Below are positions 2,030 to 15,762 of a DNA stretch of 39,458 nt, in pieces (within the stretch, counting starts at the first letter, position 1; every line of letters starts with the position of its first letter). The translations under genes were made by a program, and so were the position numbers. The stretch is from Actinomycetes bacterium (GTDB taxonomy: Bacteria > Actinomycetota > Actinomycetes > Streptosporangiales > Streptosporangiaceae). The stretch lies in the NCBI GenBank assembly GCA_021792405.1, contig JAJYUU010000028.1, positions 1 through 39,458 of the forward strand, in the 5' to 3' direction. The notes beneath the pieces were generated by a model. That model had not been told where the DNA came from, searched no databases, and saw nothing but the letters and a program-made list of their open reading frames with translations.

Positions 2030-5000
2030 CTACGAGAACAGGCCGCGGATGTCGTCCGCGTCGAGCGGACCGCCGAACTCGTTGCCGCTGTCGATGACGC
2101 TGGTGAACAGCTGTGCCTTCCGGGCCTTCAGTGCCATGACCTTGTCCTCGATGGTGCCGGCTGAGATGAGCCGGTACACGACGACGTTGCGCGTCTGGCC
2201 GATCCGGTGGGTCCGGTCAACGGCCTGTGCCTCGGTGGCCGGGTTCCACCACGGGTCGAGCAGGAAGCAGTAGTCCGCCTCGGTCAGGTTCAGCCCGAAG
2301 CCGCCGGCTTTCAAGCTGATCAGGAACACCGGAGCCGCTCCGCTCTTGAACCGCTCCACAACAAGCGCGCGGTCGCGGGTCGACCCGTCCAGGTAGCAGT
2401 ACTCGATGCCGGCCGCATCCAGCCGTGCTCGCACCCGCGCCAGGAACCCGGTGAACTGGCTGAACACCAGCGCGCGGTGCCCGCCGCCGGCCACCTCGGT
2501 GAGCTGGCCCAGCAGCGCATCGATCTTTGCGCACGGCATGTCCTCGCTGGCGGGGTCGACCAGCCCGGCGTGCAGGCTCAGCTGTCGCAGCAACGTCAGC
2601 GAGCGCAGGATCGTGAACCGGTTGGCGTTCAGGTCGCCGATGAGACCCAGCACCTTCTGCCGCTCGCGCTGCAGGTACGTCTGATACAGCTTGCGGTGCC
2701 GCGGGTGCAGATCCACCTCCAGCACCTGCTCCTGCTTGGCCGGCAGGTCGGCGGCGACCTGCTCCTTGGTCCGGCGCCTGACCAGCGGCTTGATTCGCCT
2801 CCGCAACTGCGCCAGCAGCTCGGTCTGGCCGCGCCGCTCGATCGGGCGGGCATAGTACTCCGCGAAACGCGTTGGGCTCGGGAACAACCCGGGTGCCGTG
2901 ATCGACAGCAGCGACCACAGTTCCATGAGGTTGTTCTCCATCGGTGTGCCGGTGATCGCTAGCTTGAATGGCGCGGGCAGCGTGCGCGCGCACTGGTAGA
3001 CGCGCGACTGGTGGTTCTTGACGTTCTGCGCCTCGTCCAGGATCAGGCCGGACCACTGCACGGCGGAGTAACGGGCACTGTCCATCCGCAGCAGCGCGTA
3101 CGTGGTGATCACCGCGTCGGCTCGCGCGACGATCGAACCCAGGTCGCCGCCACTGCGCGCCAGCGTCTCGCTGATCACCGCGACCCGCAGTCCTGGCGCG
3201 AACCGCGCCGCCTCGCTGGCCCAGTTCGACACCACGCTCGTCGGAGCCACGATCAGGAACGGCGGCGCGGCCGGCTCAGCTGCCCTGGCGTGGCAGATCA
3301 GCGCCAGCGCCTGCAGCGTCTTGCCCAGGCCCATGTCGTCGGCAAGGATCCCGCCGAGCTGGTTGGCCCACAGGAATGCCAGCCACTGGAAGCCGTCCGC
3401 CTGATACGGCCGCAGCTGCGCGGTCAGCGCGGCCGGCATCTCCGCCTGCTGCGCTCCGCCAACGCCGGCGGAGAGCAGGCCATCGACGTGACGCTGCCAT
3501 GCCGCCGCCTGTCGCTCGACCAGGCCGAGCGAGGCCAGCTCACCCCACAGGTCTGCCTGGAACCTGCTGATACGCAGCTGGCTGCCCGGCCAGTCGGCCA
3601 GTGTCCGCGCTTCCTCGATCAGCCGCGCCAGCGACCGCAGCTCCGGCTTGTCGAGCGAGAAGTACGCGCCGTCGTCGAGCAGCAGATGCGACTCGCCGCG
3701 GCTCAGGGCCACGAACACTGTCGCGAACGGCACCGTCCGGCCGTCTACCGTTATGGTCACGCCGAGGTCGAACCAGTCGTGCTCGCCCGAGATCTCGTCG
3801 GCCGACACGCCGATCCGCAGCGAGTCACTGACCTCGCGGTAGTCCGCGGGCTCACCGGTGATCTCCACCCCGATCCCTGGCTGGCCCGACAGTAGCGGCA
3901 GCAGCTCCGTGCTGAACCGCATCGTGTCGATCCCGGTAAGCTGCGCGGCCGGCCAGATCACGGAGCCGCCCGGCAAGGGCAGCGGCAGCCGGTCATCGCC
4001 TTGGTCACCCTCATCGGCGCCGGCCAGGCCGAACTTCTCCAGCGGGGCCACTGCGATGCCATCCAGGATGGCCCGCTCTGCTGCCGGATCGCGGTAACCC
4101 GCATCCCTTGCGTCGGCGGCCGCGGCGAGCGGCACCCGACGCACCGAGTCCCCGATCTGGTACAGCCACTCGAAGCTGACATCCACGCAATGGCCCGGAC
4201 CGTACTCGGCGCCGAGCACCAGGGTCGGCGCCGAGATCGGCGGCGGCGTGAATGACTCGTCGGAGGATATGACTGTCGCCGCCTGCCTCAGCCGCGGGTA
4301 GTACTCGGAGCGGAACCTGCCCTCCTCAGCCGCAGGCACCGTCAAACGTCCGCTTGCCAGCGCGAGATCCTGCAACTCCCTGCTCGTGCGCTTGCCGAGC
4401 GACGCCAGCCCGAACCGCCAGCCGGAGACGTTCACGCCCCGCTCGACGTCCGCGCGGCCGGCGTAGACGACGCCGTGTCCCGTCGACCCGACGAACCGCA
4501 CGGGCACCACATCGGCCGGCCCGCCGTCGACCCGGATCACCGGGCTGATCACCAGCTCTCCCGGCTGCGAGCCACCGGTGACATCCAGGCACAGCTCCGC
4601 GGCGCCGCAGGCCGGCAGGCGCCCGAGCCGCCGCGGGTAAACCAGCGCCAGCCCGATGGCGGCTGCCTCCTCAAGCAGCGGCCACAGGTGGCGTGACTCG
4701 AACCGCGCCAGGTCGATGTAGCGCTGGTCGCTGGTGTGGTAGCCGGTGTGGCCCGACAGGTAGGTCGAGTACAGCTCCGTCAGCAGGCGGATGTGCTCGC
4801 GGTCATAGCCACCGTAGTACCGAAGCGAGTCGAGCTTGCCCCAGCCGACCTGACCGGCGACCCAGGTGCCGTTCCTGCCCGGCTGAACCAGCCGAGCGTC
4901 GATGATCAGCCGGCCCGCACCCTCCCGGACCCGCCTGGCCTCGTCAGTGTCCCGGATCGACACCTCGACCGCCAGCGGTGTCCGGCTCGCCTGACCCGGG

Positions 5001-5467
5001 GAACCGTCGTTCCCGCCCGGAAGCAGCGCGGCGAGCGAGCGCTCCCACGGAAGCGGCACCTGAACCGAGATGTCCTGCCCGCACGCTTCCGCGGCCGCCA
5101 GCGTCAGCGTCGCCGCGTGCTCGCAGTCGGTCACGCGCCGGCAGGTGCACGAGCTCTCGATGAACCGCAGCGTCCGGCCGGCGGCCAGGTAGATCGTCGT
5201 CTCGAAAAAGCCGTCGCTGGCCTGCAGGTATCCCTGCAGCGCGGTCTCGGCGGGACGCCACATGACCTGCCCGCCGGTCCGCTGGGCCAGCGCGCGGTGC
5301 GCCGCGGCCCAGGCGGCCGGGCCTACCGCAGCCTGAACCGATCCGAGGTCGATTTCACCGGGGAGCACGGTCACCATGGCCCGCACGATAGCGTCCGGGA
5401 CCGACAGCCGCGCACCGTACACGCCGGTCCATACGGCTGGCACGAGCGTGACAAACGGCGCGACCAT
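2030..5467 (-). CDS. SWIM zinc-finger SNF2-family DNA helicase/translocase
   Basis: This is a 1145-residue protein from ATG 5467. ATG 5377 (residue 31) is an equally plausible start, and neither has a clear Shine-Dalgarno. A SWIM zinc-binding motif, CTC-x6-CEH, lies at about residues 107-117. A long middle region carries no motif I can name. The C-terminal 500 residues form a complete Swi2/Snf2 ATPase: motif I ILADDMGLGKT, motif II LILDEAQ, motif III ITGTPMENN, and helicase-C motifs ending in QAVDRTHRIGQTR. Such proteins translocate on double-stranded DNA and remodel protein-DNA complexes. The gene is divergent from the operon at 5569-8745 with about 100-190 nt between, so a shared control region is likely. 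SNF2-like helicases are common partners in BREX and DISARM-type defence loci. The catalytic motifs are all intact. Confidence 0.92.
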   Translation of the reverse strand: MVAPFVTLVPAVWTGVYGARLSVPDAIVRAMVTVLPGEIDLGSVQAAVGPAAWAAAHRALAQRTGGQVMWRPAETALQGYLQASDGFFETTIYLAAGRTLRFIESSCTCRRVTDCEHAATLTLAAAEACGQDISVQVPLPWERSLAALLPGGNDGSPGQASRTPLAVEVSIRDTDEARRVREGAGRLIIDARLVQPGRNGTWVAGQVGWGKLDSLRYYGGYDREHIRLLTELYSTYLSGHTGYHTSDQRYIDLARFESRHLWPLLEEAAAIGLALVYPRRLGRLPACGAAELCLDVTGGSQPGELVISPVIRVDGGPADVVPVRFVGSTGHGVVYAGRADVERGVNVSGWRFGLASLGKRTSRELQDLALASGRLTVPAAEEGRFRSEYYPRLRQAATVISSDESFTPPPISAPTLVLGAEYGPGHCVDVSFEWLYQIGDSVRRVPLAAAADARDAGYRDPAAERAILDGIAVAPLEKFGLAGADEGDQGDDRLPLPLPGGSVIWPAAQLTGIDTMRFSTELLPLLSGQPGIGVEITGEPADYREVSDSLRIGVSADEISGEHDWFDLGVTITVDGRTVPFATVFVALSRGESHLLLDDGAYFSLDKPELRSLARLIEEARTLADWPGSQLRISRFQADLWGELASLGLVERQAAAWQRHVDGLLSAGVGGAQQAEMPAALTAQLRPYQADGFQWLAFLWANQLGGILADDMGLGKTLQALALICHARAAEPAAPPFLIVAPTSVVSNWASEAARFAPGLRVAVISETLARSGGDLGSIVARADAVITTYALLRMDSARYSAVQWSGLILDEAQNVKNHQSRVYQCARTLPAPFKLAITGTPMENNLMELWSLLSITAPGLFPSPTRFAEYYARPIERRGQTELLAQLRRRIKPLVRRRTKEQVAADLPAKQEQVLEVDLHPRHRKLYQTYLQRERQKVLGLIGDLNANRFTILRSLTLLRQLSLHAGLVDPASEDMPCAKIDALLGQLTEVAGGGHRALVFSQFTGFLARVRARLDAAGIEYCYLDGSTRDRALVVERFKSGAAPVFLISLKAGGFGLNLTEADYCFLLDPWWNPATEAQAVDRTHRIGQTRNVVVYRLISAGTIEDKVMALKARKAQLFTSVIDSGNEFGGPLDADDIRGLFS

Positions 5468-5568
5468 GGCAACCGCGCGACCGGCATCGCGGCTCCCCGT
5501 TTCCGGGTACGGTTCTGCTGTGCGCCAAGACGCGCGCTAACCCCCCAGCAAATCCGAGGAGTGCGCCC

Positions 5569-6357
5569 GTGGAGTCAGAGACGACCTTCGAGGCTGCGCT
5601 GAGCCTGACGCAGGGCAAGGCGGAAGCCGCGCTCAAATCCGCCGGATCAGTGACGCGGGAGCTGCGCAAGGCCCGGGCTGCCGCGGCGAATGGCCAGGTG
5701 CGCGACCTGCGCCGCGCGCTCGAAGCGGCCGTGGGGCTGGCCGGCGAGCTGCAGGCGTCCGCGCAGCAGGCACGCGACAGCTTCGATATCGACGAGACCG
5801 CCTACCTGGCCTCGGGCGAGTACGCCAAGGAACTGCTGGCGATGGCTCCCGAGCGTGGCGTGTCCCTGTATGAGGAAGACGAGCGGCTGCTGAGTTATCC
5901 GTCGATTGTCCGCGTCCTGCCCGGCGATTCCGTCGTGGAAATCGACCGCAAGAGGGAACGACGATTGCGTCCCTCGGTCCTGCTTGGCCTGCTGGCGGCT
6001 GTGCAGCAGCGCCCGGCCCGGTTCCGGGCCGAGCAGTTCCTTGAGAGTCTCGCCGCGGGCTACGAGCTGGTAGTTGCCCGCAACGGGAAGAAACCCGATG
6101 CCGTCGTGCGCCTGGTCGAGATCTGGGATGTGCTGACGCTGCTTCCCGGCCAGGCGAGGGAGTACACCCGGCAGGAGTTTTCCCGCGACTTGTACCTGCT
6201 CGACCAAAGTGGCGCGGCGAAGACGAAGGACGGCCGGGCGTTGCGCTGGCACGCCAGCAGCGGGACGCGCTCATCGGGCGTGCTGACTACTGTCGCCCGC
6301 ACCGGCCAGCAGCAGCGCTACTGGGGCGTATCGTTCGCGAACGGGCCAGAGCGCTGA
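5569..6357 (+). CDS. Hypothetical protein with helical N-terminus, first gene of BrxD-like operon
   Basis: This is a 262-residue protein. It starts at GTG 5569, chosen because GAGGAG (5556-5561) sits 7 nt upstream. The first 85 residues are Ala/Arg/Glu-rich and look like a long helix or coiled coil. The rest is mixed alpha/beta with no catalytic motif I recognise (for example SYPSIVRVLPGDSVVEIDRK and VVRLVEIWDVLTLLPGQ). There is no signal peptide or membrane segment. The stop is followed within 10 nt by the next gene, and the three genes appear to be one transcript. By position it is likely an adaptor or structural subunit of the helicase/ATPase system. This is inference only. Confidence 0.8.
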   Translation: MESETTFEAALSLTQGKAEAALKSAGSVTRELRKARAAAANGQVRDLRRALEAAVGLAGELQASAQQARDSFDIDETAYLASGEYAKELLAMAPERGVSLYEEDERLLSYPSIVRVLPGDSVVEIDRKRERRLRPSVLLGLLAAVQQRPARFRAEQFLESLAAGYELVVARNGKKPDAVVRLVEIWDVLTLLPGQAREYTRQEFSRDLYLLDQSGAAKTKDGRALRWHASSGTRSSGVLTTVARTGQQQRYWGVSFANGPER

Positions 6358-6364
6358 GGTGATG

Positions 6365-7384
6365 ATGGTGACCAGTGACGGCCAGCCAGCCCCGGCCGCC
6401 GTGCTCGGCGGCGGGATGCTGAAGGCCGGCGACTATGCCGACTTTCTAGCCCGCGAGTACCTGACGGGTTATTTGCCGGCCGGCGGCGCGGCGGTGAAGG
6501 TCGCCGTCGTCGGCGAGGACGGAGCGGCCGACCGGCTGGGCGCGGCGCTGGCATCCGCGGCTGCGGTGGCCGGGTCGCTCTACGCGCCGATTTCCGCCGA
6601 GACCACCCGGGTGCACATGATCGACCAGGTATTCCTGGCGATATCTCGGGCGGTGGACTGGGAGGCGGTGGCGGCTGCTCACGTGCGCGCGGCCTACGAG
6701 GAGGCGGCCTTCCCGGTGGGCGAGGAGGCTGACCTCGCCGTGACGGCGGTCGCGCGGCGGCACGACGTCGACAGCCGGGAGCTGTACCGCAGCGTACGGC
6801 GGCTGCTGGAACGCAGCCTGCTCGGCAACCCGGCCGTCGCGCCGGAGCTGGGCCGGGCGATGCTGCGGCTGGCCCAGGCCCAGCTCGGCGGCGGCGACAT
6901 CGACGTGGCCGAGCACGACGCGGTGATGAGCTGGCTGCGTGGCGAGCTGACGTCGATCACCGCGCTGCGGCCTGCGCTCATCTACGCCCGCATCGGCCGG
7001 CACAACGCCAGGGCGATGCTCGCTTCGACGGCTGTGCTGCTGCTTGCGGCCGGCTACCAGGGTCTCGTCGTGCAGCTGGACCTCGGCAGGCTTGCCGAGG
7101 GGCGCCGGCCGCCAGCGGAGCTCAGATCCGGCTGCTATTACTCAAAGGCAGCCGTGCTGGATGCTTACGAGGTCTTGCGCCAGTTCATCGACGCGACTGA
7201 CGAGCTGCGCGGCGTGCTGGTCGTCGCGGTCGTGCCACCCGAGCTGATGACCGACGAGACCCGTGGGCTGCCGGCTTACTCGGCGCTGCACCTGCGCGTC
7301 GCGGACGAGGTCCGCGACCGGCGCCGGGCCAATCCGTTCGCCGCGCTGGTGCGCCTCGAGGTACGGCTGGAGGCCGTGGCATGA
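6365..7384 (+). CDS. BrxD-like P-loop-fold protein with degenerate Walker A
   Basis: About 340 residues. Candidate starts cluster at ATG 6362, ATG 6365 and GTG 6368, just after a GAGG (6356-6359) that overlaps the upstream stop; 6365 is used here. The start of the fold (VKVAVVGEDGAADRLGAAL, about residues 44-62) has the hydrophobic strand and first glycines of a P-loop, but the GKS/T is replaced by AAD. A later segment, GYQGLVVQLDLGRLA, takes the place of Walker B but lacks the usual acidic pair. The C-terminal part (STKA-like helix, then GVLVVAVVPPELM and a receptor-like RVADEVRDRRRANPFAALVRL) resembles the C-terminal half of BrxD/DUF2791 ATPases. I infer a catalytically dead paralogue of the next gene, with which it overlaps by 4 nt (ATGA). 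A wholly unrelated fold cannot be excluded. Confidence 0.75.
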   Translation: MVTSDGQPAPAAVLGGGMLKAGDYADFLAREYLTGYLPAGGAAVKVAVVGEDGAADRLGAALASAAAVAGSLYAPISAETTRVHMIDQVFLAISRAVDWEAVAAAHVRAAYEEAAFPVGEEADLAVTAVARRHDVDSRELYRSVRRLLERSLLGNPAVAPELGRAMLRLAQAQLGGGDIDVAEHDAVMSWLRGELTSITALRPALIYARIGRHNARAMLASTAVLLLAAGYQGLVVQLDLGRLAEGRRPPAELRSGCYYSKAAVLDAYEVLRQFIDATDELRGVLVVAVVPPELMTDETRGLPAYSALHLRVADEVRDRRRANPFAALVRLEVRLEAVA

Positions 7385-8745
7385 CGCCTGTTCTCACGCA
7401 GCAGCAGGTCGCCCAGCGGCGCGCCGTCGAGGCGCTTCGCTCAGGCGTGCCGAGCTGGGACGCGGTAGCAATGCTGGGCTCGGGGCAGCCGGACGCCGAG
7501 GACCGCTTTCTTGGCCTGCTGCAGCGGGCGGCCGCGCGTCCCGGAGGCAACGTCGTCGCCGAATGGGGCAGCTCGCCGGGCGGCCAGGGTGCTTCGGGCG
7601 CGGACCGGCGCGGGCACGGTGGCGAGTCGCGCGGGCTGCTGCTGGGCGGTGGATTCGGCGGCGGAAAGAGCCACCTGCTCACTCATTTCGGCCACCTGGC
7701 CTCCTCCGCCGGATTCGTCGTGAGCACCGTCGTGATCAGCAAGGAGACCCCGCTGCACGACCCCGCCAAAACCTTCCGGGCCGCGATCGACGCCGCCGTG
7801 GACCCGGCCCGCGCCCACGGCGCGCTGGCCAGCTCCGCCGGGCTGCTGGACCCGGACACCCCGCGGTATTCGGAACTCACTCGCTGGGTCAACTCGCCCG
7901 CAAGCGGGCTGGACGAGCGGTTCGCCGCGACGCTGCTGTGCTACGAGCGGCTGCGTGGCGGTGACGTTCCCGGCAGCGACGAGACCGCGGACTCGTTCGT
8001 CCGGTTCTGGAGCGGCGAGCCCCTGCGCGTCAGCGACTTGCGCCGGACGCTCCGGTCTGTGGGCGCTGCCAGCGTGTTCACGTTCTCTCCGGTCAGCGCG
8101 CGGGACCTGGCGCAGCAGCGGTTCCGGTTCGCCGCCGCGCTGTTGCGCGCCGCGGGTCACCAGGGCTGGGTCATCCTGTTCGACGAGGTCGAGCTGATCG
8201 GCAGGTACTCATTGCTGCAGCGCGCTCGCTCCTACGCCGAGCTCGGCCGCTGGCTCACGAGTCACGAAGTCGACCGTAATGTGCCGCTGGCTGCCGTCTT
8301 CGCCATGACGGACGATTTCGAGGCCGCCGTGCTGACCGGTAAGAATGATCGCGATGAGATTCCCCGCAAGCTGCGGGCGAAGCAGTCGCCCGAGTGGGAC
8401 GAGACGGCGGCGCTTGCTGAGGTCGGCATGAAGCGCATCGAGAGCGACATGATGCTGCTGGAGCCGCCGGACGCCGCCGAGCTCGACCGCGCCTACACGG
8501 CGCTCAAGAAGCTGCACGGCGACGCGTTTGACTGGTCGCCGCCGGACGTCCCCGGGCTGGAGCGGCTTGGCGCCACGCGGATGCGCCAGTACGTGCGCGC
8601 CTGGATCAACGAATGGGACCTGATGCGCCTCGACCCGGAGTTCCAGCCGCAGACGGTTGCCGTCGACATCGCCAGCGACTATCGCGAGGATAGCGACCTG
8701 GAAGACGGCGGCGACGCCTGGAGCGACGGGTCCGAGCCGGAGTGA
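7381..8745 (+). CDS. BREX BrxD-like (DUF2791-type) P-loop ATPase
   Basis: This is a 454-residue protein starting at ATG 7381, overlapping the preceding stop by 4 nt, which suggests translational coupling. Walker A is GGGFGGGKSH (about 88-98). Walker B is WVILFDEVELIG (about 263-274), followed by the helix RARSYAELGRWL seen in the BrxD/DUF2791 family. The spacing and the GKSH and DEVE signatures match that family, whose members are ATP-binding components of type 2 BREX and related defence loci. The C-terminal 25 residues are very acidic (EDSDLEDGGD). No BREX methyltransferase (PglX), PglZ phosphatase or PglW kinase is encoded nearby. The system is therefore BREX-related at most: this ATPase, its inactive-looking paralogue, a small coiled-coil protein and a divergent SNF2 helicase. 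Confidence 0.8.
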   Translation: MTPVLTQQQVAQRRAVEALRSGVPSWDAVAMLGSGQPDAEDRFLGLLQRAAARPGGNVVAEWGSSPGGQGASGADRRGHGGESRGLLLGGGFGGGKSHLLTHFGHLASSAGFVVSTVVISKETPLHDPAKTFRAAIDAAVDPARAHGALASSAGLLDPDTPRYSELTRWVNSPASGLDERFAATLLCYERLRGGDVPGSDETADSFVRFWSGEPLRVSDLRRTLRSVGAASVFTFSPVSARDLAQQRFRFAAALLRAAGHQGWVILFDEVELIGRYSLLQRARSYAELGRWLTSHEVDRNVPLAAVFAMTDDFEAAVLTGKNDRDEIPRKLRAKQSPEWDETAALAEVGMKRIESDMMLLEPPDAAELDRAYTALKKLHGDAFDWSPPDVPGLERLGATRMRQYVRAWINEWDLMRLDPEFQPQTVAVDIASDYREDSDLEDGGDAWSDGSEPE

Positions 8746-14067: not shown

Positions 14068-14558
14068 CGGTAGTTGACGAACTGCAGGGCGATGTCGAGA
14101 TCTTTGCCCTTGAGCAGGGTGATGACGTCCTGCAGTTCGTCCTTCTTCTTGGAGGTCACTCGCAGTTCGTCGCCCTGAACCAGAGGCCGGACGCCCTTCG
14201 GGCCCTCGTCCCGGATTATCTTCGAGATCTTCTTGGCATCATCTTGCGATATGCCTTCTTTGAGGCCGACGTTCAGCCGGTACTCCTTGCCCGACGGACG
14301 TGGCTCGCCGGCATCAAGGACCTTGAGCGATACCGACCGCTTGACCAGCTTCTCCTTGAAGACGTCGAGCACGGCATTGGCCCGTGTCTCGCTGTTGGCC
14401 CGGATCTCGATCGCGGTCTTGCCCGACCACGTGATCGACGCGCCGACGCCGCGGAAATCGAACCGGGTACTGATTTCCTTGGCAGTCTGGTTGACCGCGT
14501 TGTCGACTTCCTGGTGATTAATCTTCGAGACAATGTCGAATGAGGACTCAGCTGGCAT
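14064..14558 (-). CDS. yajQ: YajQ family nucleotide-binding protein
   Basis: This is a 164-residue protein from ATG 14558 ([12 protein letters not shown]). The open frame adds four residues upstream that YajQ proteins do not have. It is a typical YajQ throughout: [19 protein letters not shown] at the start, RFDFRG, two similar halves, and [12 protein letters not shown] at the end. Members bind nucleic acid or nucleotides, and some have been reported as cyclic-di-GMP effectors. The role in this host is not established. It starts close to, and divergent from, the RNA methyltransferase gene. Confidence 0.95.
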
Positions 14559-14592
14559 GCGCCACATCATAAATCGTCATCAGCCAGCGGCA

Positions 14593-15762
14593 GTGGCAGC
14601 CACCGGCCGTCCGGTGGCAATCATCGCCAGGTCGGTGCACGGTCTTGAGTGGGTGTGCGCCTGGGAGGCCCGCGCTGGCGGCGTGGCGGCGAGCGACGTC
14701 CGGCTGAGCCGTCGGCAAGCCGATTTCGAGATCGAATCTGCCGGCCCATCGCTGCTCGGGCTCCGGACGGCCGACGACGTATTCGTCAAGGTCGCCGACA
14801 TCTACGGCGTCGGCAGGACCAAGGCTGGCCTGCCCGCACTCGGGCAGGCGGCCGCGGCACTCGACTGGCCACGCGCTTTCGGCATCCTGCGGGCCGTCCG
14901 GGAGGTAGCCGAGCGCGGCAGCTTCGACGTGGTGGCCAGCGTCGAGGGCCGCCCCAGCTACAACAGGTTCGCCGTGGAGCAATCGATCGGGCGGGCCGTC
15001 GCTCCGGTGCTCGGCGCGACGTTCTCCGAGCGTGACGGCGGTGCGCGAGCGGGCGCGGAGTCGGACTTCACGGTGCGCGCATTCGTCAGCGATGACCGGG
15101 CCACCATCGCCATCCGGCTGGGCGCCAGGCCGCTGCACCGCCGTGCCTACAAGGTCAGCACCGGCCCAGGCACCTTGCACCCGCCGGTGGCCGCGGCACT
15201 GGCGGCGATCGGTGCGCCAGCTACGGGCAGGCTGCTTGATCCGTTCTGCGGTGACGGGACTATCGGCATCGAGGCAGCGCTGACCCACCGGCGGCTGAGC
15301 GTCCTGGCCACGGACATCGATCCGCGCCGGGTGCGAAATGCCCGGCAGAACGCCGCGCTGGCGGGAGTGGACATCGAGGTGCGACTGGCCGATGCTGCCA
15401 CCGTCGCGGAGAGTTCCGCAGCCGTGGATGCGGTCATCGCTAATCCGCCCTGGAACCAGACGGTGAGCCCGGCCGGGCGCATGGCCGGATCGGGGCGCGG
15501 CTTCTGGGACGTCCTGGCCCCCGTACTCGGACCGGACGGCACTATGTGCTGTGTCACCGATGCCGACCTCGGCGTGCCGGGAATGATGGCCCGGCAGGGC
15601 TGGCAACTGGGGCTCGCACAGCGGATCAGGCTGGCGGGGCGGGTTGCCGATGTGACGCTGGCAGCGCCGCCCGGCAGGCCCGCGCCCGGCCTCCCGGCCG
15701 GCCTGGCGGACTGGCGCCGGAAAGCACTGGCCGCTGGGGTCGTCACCGACGCGGGATTCTGA
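14593..15762 (+). CDS. THUMP-domain class I RNA methyltransferase
   Basis: About 389 residues from GTG 14593. The frame is open back to an ATG at 14533 that would overlap yajQ's start, and GTG 14614 is also possible; no start has a good Shine-Dalgarno. The N-terminal third has a THUMP-like RNA-binding layout (GLEWVCAWEARAGGVAAS, then DDVFVKVADI). The methyltransferase domain has SAM motif I LLDPFCGDGTIGIEAAL, motif II VLATDID, and motif IV NPPW, which is typical of N2-guanine methylation of rRNA or tRNA (RlmKL/Trm14-like group). The exact target nucleotide is unknown. Confidence 0.88.
   Translation: MAATGRPVAIIARSVHGLEWVCAWEARAGGVAASDVRLSRRQADFEIESAGPSLLGLRTADDVFVKVADIYGVGRTKAGLPALGQAAAALDWPRAFGILRAVREVAERGSFDVVASVEGRPSYNRFAVEQSIGRAVAPVLGATFSERDGGARAGAESDFTVRAFVSDDRATIAIRLGARPLHRRAYKVSTGPGTLHPPVAAALAAIGAPATGRLLDPFCGDGTIGIEAALTHRRLSVLATDIDPRRVRNARQNAALAGVDIEVRLADAATVAESSAAVDAVIANPPWNQTVSPAGRMAGSGRGFWDVLAPVLGPDGTMCCVTDADLGVPGMMARQGWQLGLAQRIRLAGRVADVTLAAPPGRPAPGLPAGLADWRRKALAAGVVTDAGF

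Follow-up and report, generated by a model that had tools for sequence, protein, structure and literature searches.

Contig JAJYUU010000028.1 of an actinomycete from the family Streptosporangiaceae (assembly GCA_021792405.1) carries a SNF2 helicase gene that diverges from a plus-strand operon of three genes, referred to here as acc, A1, and A2. The question raised by this locus is whether all four genes make up one module related to bacteriophage exclusion (BREX), as a preliminary description of the DNA had suggested, or whether only some of them belong together. The window, by which we mean the whole stretch of 39,458 nucleotides that was analyzed, contains the genes and motifs collected in Table 1. 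What is conserved is the operon of three genes, acc–A1–A2 (5569–8745), and not the set of four; this operon encodes two BrxD-like proteins together with one orphan protein. The divergent layout described at the outset agrees with the Pfam matches and the coordinates, and the idea of an undescribed system is still plausible for the triad, although not for the four genes together.

Conservation of the Operon

Loci were collected by a scan of public genomes, one per species, with patterns derived from A2 of the window, so that close relatives are over-represented among the 44 loci obtained. Of these, 41 have acc and then A1 ahead of A2, with all three genes in the same orientation, and the remaining three (L031, L045, and L055) are cut by a contig end. 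The expected co-conservation of four genes thus holds for acc, A1, and A2 but not for the helicase, which adjoins the triad in one genus only. The triad is found in Actinomycetota, Acidobacteriota, Chloroflexota, Gemmatimonadota, and Nitrospirota, as well as in a deltaproteobacterium. Six further stretches (L059, L074, L076, L078, L079, and L080) carry the triad in the same order, two of them (L059 and L076) belonging to genomes already matched in a separate search of 60 genomes, and another one (L075) is cut.

Overlaps of four bases join A1 to A2 in 33 of 44 pairs and acc to A1 in 26 of 42, with start codons picked by script, and frame splits occur in A1 of L053 and A2 of L054, each of which runs over two frames. 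The pairwise distance matrices of acc, A1, and A2 correlate at 0.891, 0.911, and 0.925 (42 triads, window included). When the window is compared with its nearest relative, L013, third codon positions account for 52 of the 70 differences in acc, 55 of the 85 in A1, 100 of the 139 in A2, and 157 of the 248 in the helicase gene. All four are genuine genes subject to purifying selection, and, since the order acc–A1–A2 is kept and most differences lie at third codon positions, the arrangement is not due to chance. A2 is rare and its presence patchy: among 393 genomes of the class it was detected (E values up to 1e-30) in 5, and among 396 of the phylum in 4, the genome of the window being included in both counts.

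Table 1. Positions of the genes and motifs of the locus within the window.
Feature	Position	Strand	Length	Remarks
SWIM-SNF2 helicase	2030..5467	−	1145 aa	Divergent; possible local partner, outside the conserved core
Divergent intergenic region, helicase/acc	5468..5568		101 bp	AGGAG a few bases 5′ of the acc GTG start (read directly)
acc	5569..6357	+	262 aa	Orphan protein
A1	6359..7384	+	341 aa	BrxD/SngB-like putative pseudo-ATPase
A1 eroded P-loop	6494..6526	+		Residues 46–56; from alignment with SngB/BrxD
A1 block R302-G...Y-x-A-L-x-x-R313	7262..7297	+		As in SngB; from alignment
A2	7381..8745	+	454 aa	BrxD/SngB-like putative ATPase, ATP site intact; start overlaps the A1 stop by 4 bases
A2 Walker A GGGFGGGKS	7645..7671	+		[GA]x4GK[ST] matched in 46/46 members
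A2 Walker B ILFDEVE	8173..8193	+		D, E, and E each in 45/46, one gap

An ATPase and a Putative Pseudo-ATPase

Judged by their profiles, A1 and A2 are both members of the BrxD/SngB family. They match the Pfam family PF10923 (BrxC_BrxD) with 55.2 and 51.3 bits, respectively, over a gathering cut-off of 22.2, which bears out the assignment of the last gene, made earlier from its Walker A and DEVE motifs, to the BrxD type. A housekeeping ATPase, considered then as the alternative, did not emerge: over cut-offs, A1 and A2 match BrxC_BrxD only, and otherwise BrxD and, weakly, SngB. What had been missed is the nature of the middle gene, also a PF10923 member, so that the operon consists of two BrxD-like proteins and one orphan and not of a single BrxD-like ATPase with unrelated companions. 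On the BrxD equivalog of NCBIfam, A1 and A2 score 46.1 and 47.1 bits, far under its cut-off of 350; in PADLOC and NCBIfam taken together, they are BrxD-like at 43–47 bits, the SngB matches being weaker (23 and 11 bits). Comparison of profiles with four reference proteins, three of them SngB and one BrxD, gave a probability of 98.1 for A1 (E 9e-14, 246 columns) and of 98.4 for A2 (E 8.5e-15, 259 columns), while sequence searches of the PDB with the two profiles returned nothing useful.

The two proteins differ in the ATP site. Walker A is found in every one of the 46 members of A2 and in none of the 42 full-length members of A1 (a count of 0/45 takes in three fragments that do not include this region), which points to an ATPase accompanied by a pseudo-ATPase. 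The aspartate of Walker B is kept in all 42 full-length A1 proteins, and the position of the glutamate is occupied by L or I in 36 of them. Two arginines of A1, Arg302 and Arg313, are also present in 42 of 42, in a block that reads DPRRGLFSYPALASR in SngB. In the monomer model of A1, with a mean predicted local distance difference test (pLDDT) score of 90.1, the predicted order of strands and helices would suit a P-loop protein, and a loop of four residues connects strand 45–51 to helix 56–71 at the place where the P-loop is expected.

The Orphan Protein acc

In turn, acc is without a convincing relative in Pfam, PADLOC, NCBIfam, or the PDB. Protein acc of the window has no match in the first three at E values up to 1, and no PDB fold was matched with E < 1 when its AlphaFold2 monomer model (pLDDT 93.9, predicted template modeling score 0.83) was submitted to Foldseek. 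The predicted architecture comprises a long N-terminal helical hairpin, followed by a C-terminal alpha/beta domain. Among 41 acc members, the best Pfam E value is 0.00034, for V-SNARE in a single member, where it covers the helical hairpin and is not convincing; designed coiled coils matched the hairpin when the PDB was searched with the acc profile. No likeness was seen between the acc profile and those of SngA, JetA (DUF3375), and two further families, c4 and c6, that are described below, and pairwise comparison of acc, c4, c6, and SngA gave probabilities of 0.3 or less in each case. The candidate identity of acc as a TerB protein (SngA) was rejected, the alignment probability being 0.2.

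A Wadjet-like condensin, with acc as a kleisin-like or JetA-like subunit, is a barely credible reading of the triad. DUF3375, which we take to be JetA, was matched in 2 of 41 acc members (best E 0.0047), neither of them among the six scanned singly, and Foldseek returned a weak Wadjet chain for acc (E 2.2), but the acc profile aligned with four DUF3375 proteins at a probability of only 0.05, and A1 and A2 are PF10923 proteins and not SMC ATPases. The identification of acc with JetA was rejected, and a Wadjet-like reading of acc and the triad is close to refuted.

The Helicase of the Window

The divergent gene encodes an SNF2 helicase, as shown by the Pfam matches to SNF2-rel_dom (PF00176, 216 bits) and Helicase_C (PF00271, 67 bits). 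The SWIM model scores 12.2 bits, which is under its cut-off, though the N-terminal sequence still reads CTC-x5-CEH (CxC-x5-CxH), so that the SWIM motif named in the preliminary description is readable. Its best PADLOC model is DpdE (PDLC02851, 692 bits). In the search of 60 genomes, the full-length helicase (E values up to 1e-150) was detected in nine, the genome of the window included, and A2 in six (one as a fragment). Of the other eight genomes with a helicase orthologue, just one carries A2 and the triad as well, namely G004, from the genus of the window. The A2 tree places the window and L013 in a group of ten, and in the other eight members no helicase of the panel introduced below adjoins the triad. 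The four-gene module was rejected, since the helicase adjoins the triad only in the genus of the window, and the SNF2 helicase may be regarded as a local partner at best.

It is quite conceivable, although we would not put it at even chances, that the SWIM-SNF2 helicase is an unrelated neighbor and that the triad acts by itself or uses a helicase from another place in the genome. None of the seven helicase neighborhoods outside the genus, two of them on contigs shorter than 7 kb, contains a triad gene, and the near triads L014, L015, and L059 have no SWIM-SNF2 helicase alongside. However, the linkage of helicase and triad is kept in the window and in L013, where the DNA is 91% identical over 6.8 kb, and SNF2 helicases recur next to other triads. 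A further point against mere proximity comes from another genome of the genus (G005), in which, at positions 4870–5570 of locus L058, the equivalent of window positions 2039–2672 runs directly into that of 8620–8690. This joint, leading from the interior of the helicase gene to the end of A2, would mean that the helicase and the triad were lost together, unless it is misassembled.

Varied Neighbors of the Triad

The panel used to sort the neighbors at the 44 loci was fixed at ten proteins, and some of the contigs are short or cut, so that other helicases can have been missed. A helicase resembling XPB and PbeA (c3) lies downstream of the triad in 12 of 44 loci (weakly matched in L048), with c4 upstream in nine of these. 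In six loci, c6 and a helicase–nuclease of the SNF2-Mrr type follow the triad, and three others have SNF2 helicases placed differently (L013, L020, where it is 1.4 kb away, and L053). Shango genes diverge from the triad in five loci, all three being visible in L026, L027, and L049 (with 195, 569, and 874 bits for SngA, SngB, and SngC in the last one) and SngA alone in L021 and L041. When these classes are combined, a helicase itself is visible in 24 of the 44 loci. All six SNF2-Mrr loci fall among the nine loci of the set that are not actinobacterial; the other three, all from Acidobacteriota, show one weak XPB match and no match in two cases. SNF2-Mrr is also present in L079 and L080, which were found later and come from the actinobacterial phylum. 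The types of neighbors cluster on the A2 tree, with nine changes compared with a mean of 25.4 after shuffling and none of 200 shuffles as low, on a tree that was built by a quick method with a midpoint root, has five long branches, and carries L020 labeled as having no panel neighbor; near-copies by themselves are enough to make labels cluster.

Several of the neighbors deserve mention in their own right. The c4 proteins (L042, 6647–8248, and relatives) and the c6 proteins (L047, 11203–11691, and relatives) are further orphan families in line with the triad; c4 has only weak Pfam matches, to sigma-70 region 4, and c6 has no Pfam match. In L048, from Bryobacterales, a large helicase of superfamily 1 (SF1; 3842–7276) that includes a domain of the RNase H fold is encoded upstream of the triad, and a relative of this helicase is present in L023, separated from the triad by over 6 kb. 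The triad of L074 (7431–10527), in an actinobacterial genome consisting of one contig, is very divergent, with profile scores of 54.8 bits for acc, 223.6 for A1, and 353.1 for A2; its sole panel match is a weak XPB fragment of 44 bits about 5 kb away.

Comparison with Known Systems

The triad is a variant of the ATPase–helicase modules of the BrxD/SngB type, neither BREX nor Shango. Shango is a tested anti-phage system with TerB, an ATPase, and a helicase (PMC10250203). SngB shares its ATPase family with A1 and A2, and both arrangements combine an ATPase, a helicase, and a third protein. The differences are nevertheless clear: the SngB model that gives 569 bits for the SngB protein of L049 gives 23 and 11 for A1 and A2, the triad has two paralogous ATPases, one of them without an ATP site, acc shows no similarity in alignment to SngA (TerB_N/TerB_C), and the window helicase is of the SNF2 type, with SngC not among the best 25 of its 38 PADLOC families. 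Membership in Shango was rejected, as neither a TerB protein nor a full-length SngB or SngC was seen among the window proteins scanned.

The BrxD–BrxHI dyad of BREX type 2 likewise links a PF10923 ATPase to a helicase. BrxD is described as an ATPase of the ORC-Cdc6 type in tight linkage with BrxHI; its role is called uncharacterized, and loading or activation of BrxHI is only proposed (PMC12839542). BrxHI is described there as Ski2-like, whereas the window helicase belongs to SNF2. The absence of PglX, PglZ, and PglW, on which the locus had been set apart from classic BREX, was confirmed by a PADLOC scan of six proteins between 444 and 10432, with the helicase represented by the best 25 of its 38 families; four further proteins of the window gave only a partial match to mad2. 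As no PglX, PglZ, or PglW was seen in these scans and the BrxD equivalog score is under the cut-off, membership in BREX was rejected.

The SNF2 core of ZorD (Zorya), DpdE (Dpd), and DrmD (DISARM) is common to the window helicase, the SNF2-Mrr protein of L047, and the partner in L053. The window helicase scores far under the NCBIfam equivalog cut-offs, and the six window proteins scanned include nothing else from Zorya, Dpd, or DISARM. The XPB-type c3 of L042 matches PbeA of Pbe with 190 bits, over the helicase part only, and c4 in the same operon is without a match in PADLOC, which covered c3 and c4 there.

It is improbable that the triad is an add-on to Shango or BREX for regulation or specificity that acts in trans wherever neither of them is a neighbor. 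Shango genes do lie divergent to it in the loci listed above, the genome of the window has a partial BREX type-2 set on another contig, and a canonical BrxD (>400 bits) was found in 7 of 19 genomes with A2, compared with 12 of 54 relatives without the triad. These are not random samples: the 19 are the distinct A2 genomes after merging of two pairs with identical coordinates, and the 54 are the 60 genomes minus five with the triad and minus G005 with its remnant. Still, 12 of the 19 A2 genomes have no canonical match of the BrxD/SngB type above 400 bits, so that BREX or Shango in trans is not required, and such a requirement was rejected. The partial set mentioned, on contig C46 (L057, 92–8831 and 8891–10138), comprises the end of PglY/BrxC, PglZ, BrxD, and BrxHI; a match to the model of a methyl-directed type II restriction enzyme adjoins it, and PglW and PglX are not in view.

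No description of the acc–A1–A2 triad, and no use of the term “DUF2791”, was found in the literature searched. No model of PADLOC 2.0.0 matches the triad well, and the triad would add a family.

Proposed Function

With some hesitation, at a little under even chances, we read the triad as one complex, a split ATPase of the ORC/Cdc6 type that loads exchangeable superfamily 2 (SF2) helicases, most likely in defense. The acc–A1–A2 cassette would encode this complex, with ATPases of the BrxD/SngB family: A2 would bind and hydrolyze ATP, and A1, as a dead paralogue, would complete a ring or dimer, possibly giving arginines to the A2 site. The last suggestion is based on the role of the arginine fingers of ORC-type ATPases. 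Protein acc may act as the adaptor, in contact with DNA or with the helicase, and the complex may load or activate an SF2 helicase on target DNA, as proposed for BrxD and BrxHI. The helicase would be replaceable, the SWIM-SNF2 protein being the candidate in the window, and the likeliest purpose would be defense against foreign DNA. The order and overlaps of the genes, their co-conservation, the domain families, the missing Walker A of A1, and the kinds of neighbors are observed; the complex itself, the supply of arginines, helicase loading, the part played by acc, and defense are inferred. With its ATP site in one protein, a dead paralogue kept alongside, an additional partner, and a choice of helicases, the triad would amount to a natural version of the BrxD function, and such a split version would make the helicase-loading proposal for BrxD testable by single mutations and partner swaps.

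Several observations weigh against this proposal. The A1 and A2 profiles compared directly reach a probability of 51.8 only. The A1 model found no PDB match in Foldseek at E 0.001 or better, so that the assignment of the A1 fold rests on profiles. In the block equivalent to that of A1, A2 has basic residues of its own (Lys/Arg321 in 45 and Arg332 in 41 of 46 members), so that the supply of arginines by A1 is only one option. No panel member was found at 18 of the 44 loci, some of them cut short, and these include L014 and L015, which, among loci from other genera, are closest to the window. In a PADLOC comparison of 111 of the 116 neighbors of the 18 partnerless loci, no family among the 25 listed had more than two matches (E 1e-20), the table giving counts for families and not the number of proteins with any match. 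The defense-type matches seen there are to a type I methyltransferase, mad2/mad3, DolB, and MkoA/MkoC, and the surroundings form no clear defense island, there being no control set for comparison. Relatives of A2 were not found in collections of phages, plasmids, and viral contigs.

The same partnerless loci, the lack of a clear excess of defense genes around them, and the absence from mobile-element collections would also suit a device for DNA repair or chromosome maintenance, for which defense-type helicases would be incidental or later additions, particularly as ordinary genes lie near some of these triads (phosphotransferase system components in L016, a peptidase in L034, and a dehydrogenase in L037). 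We consider this alternative unlikely, though it deserves attention, because the presence of the triad is patchy in both the class and the phylum and because six of the nine non-actinobacterial loci have the SNF2-Mrr helicase–nuclease in the operon. In the reading favored here the triad is probably defensive, the helicase neighbors and the adjacency of Shango being context only. We can speculate further that acc–A1–A2 is an undescribed defense core that crosses phyla, a heteromeric loader made of pseudo-ATPase, ATPase, and the orphan adaptor that acts as a common front end for interchangeable helicases (XPB-like, the SNF2-Mrr nuclease, and SWIM-SNF2) that also stands back to back with Shango, with recognition and effector separable, an extension that is possible but held with more reserve.

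Other Features of the Window

A gene for an AAA ATPase resembling BCS1 (444–1853) is located upstream of the helicase, and also upstream in L013; at the remaining 43 loci of the set, tblastn did not detect it. A tRNA-Ala (TGC) gene of 92 bases occupies positions 412–503 (ARAGORN; 44.5 bits with Rfam), so that the listed GTG start of the AAA gene at 444 lies inside the tRNA, and the ATG at 504, next to the tRNA end, could start this gene instead. Farther downstream, an RMKL-like methyltransferase (14533–15762) accounts for the partial match to the mad2 model of PADLOC, with 78.6 bits.

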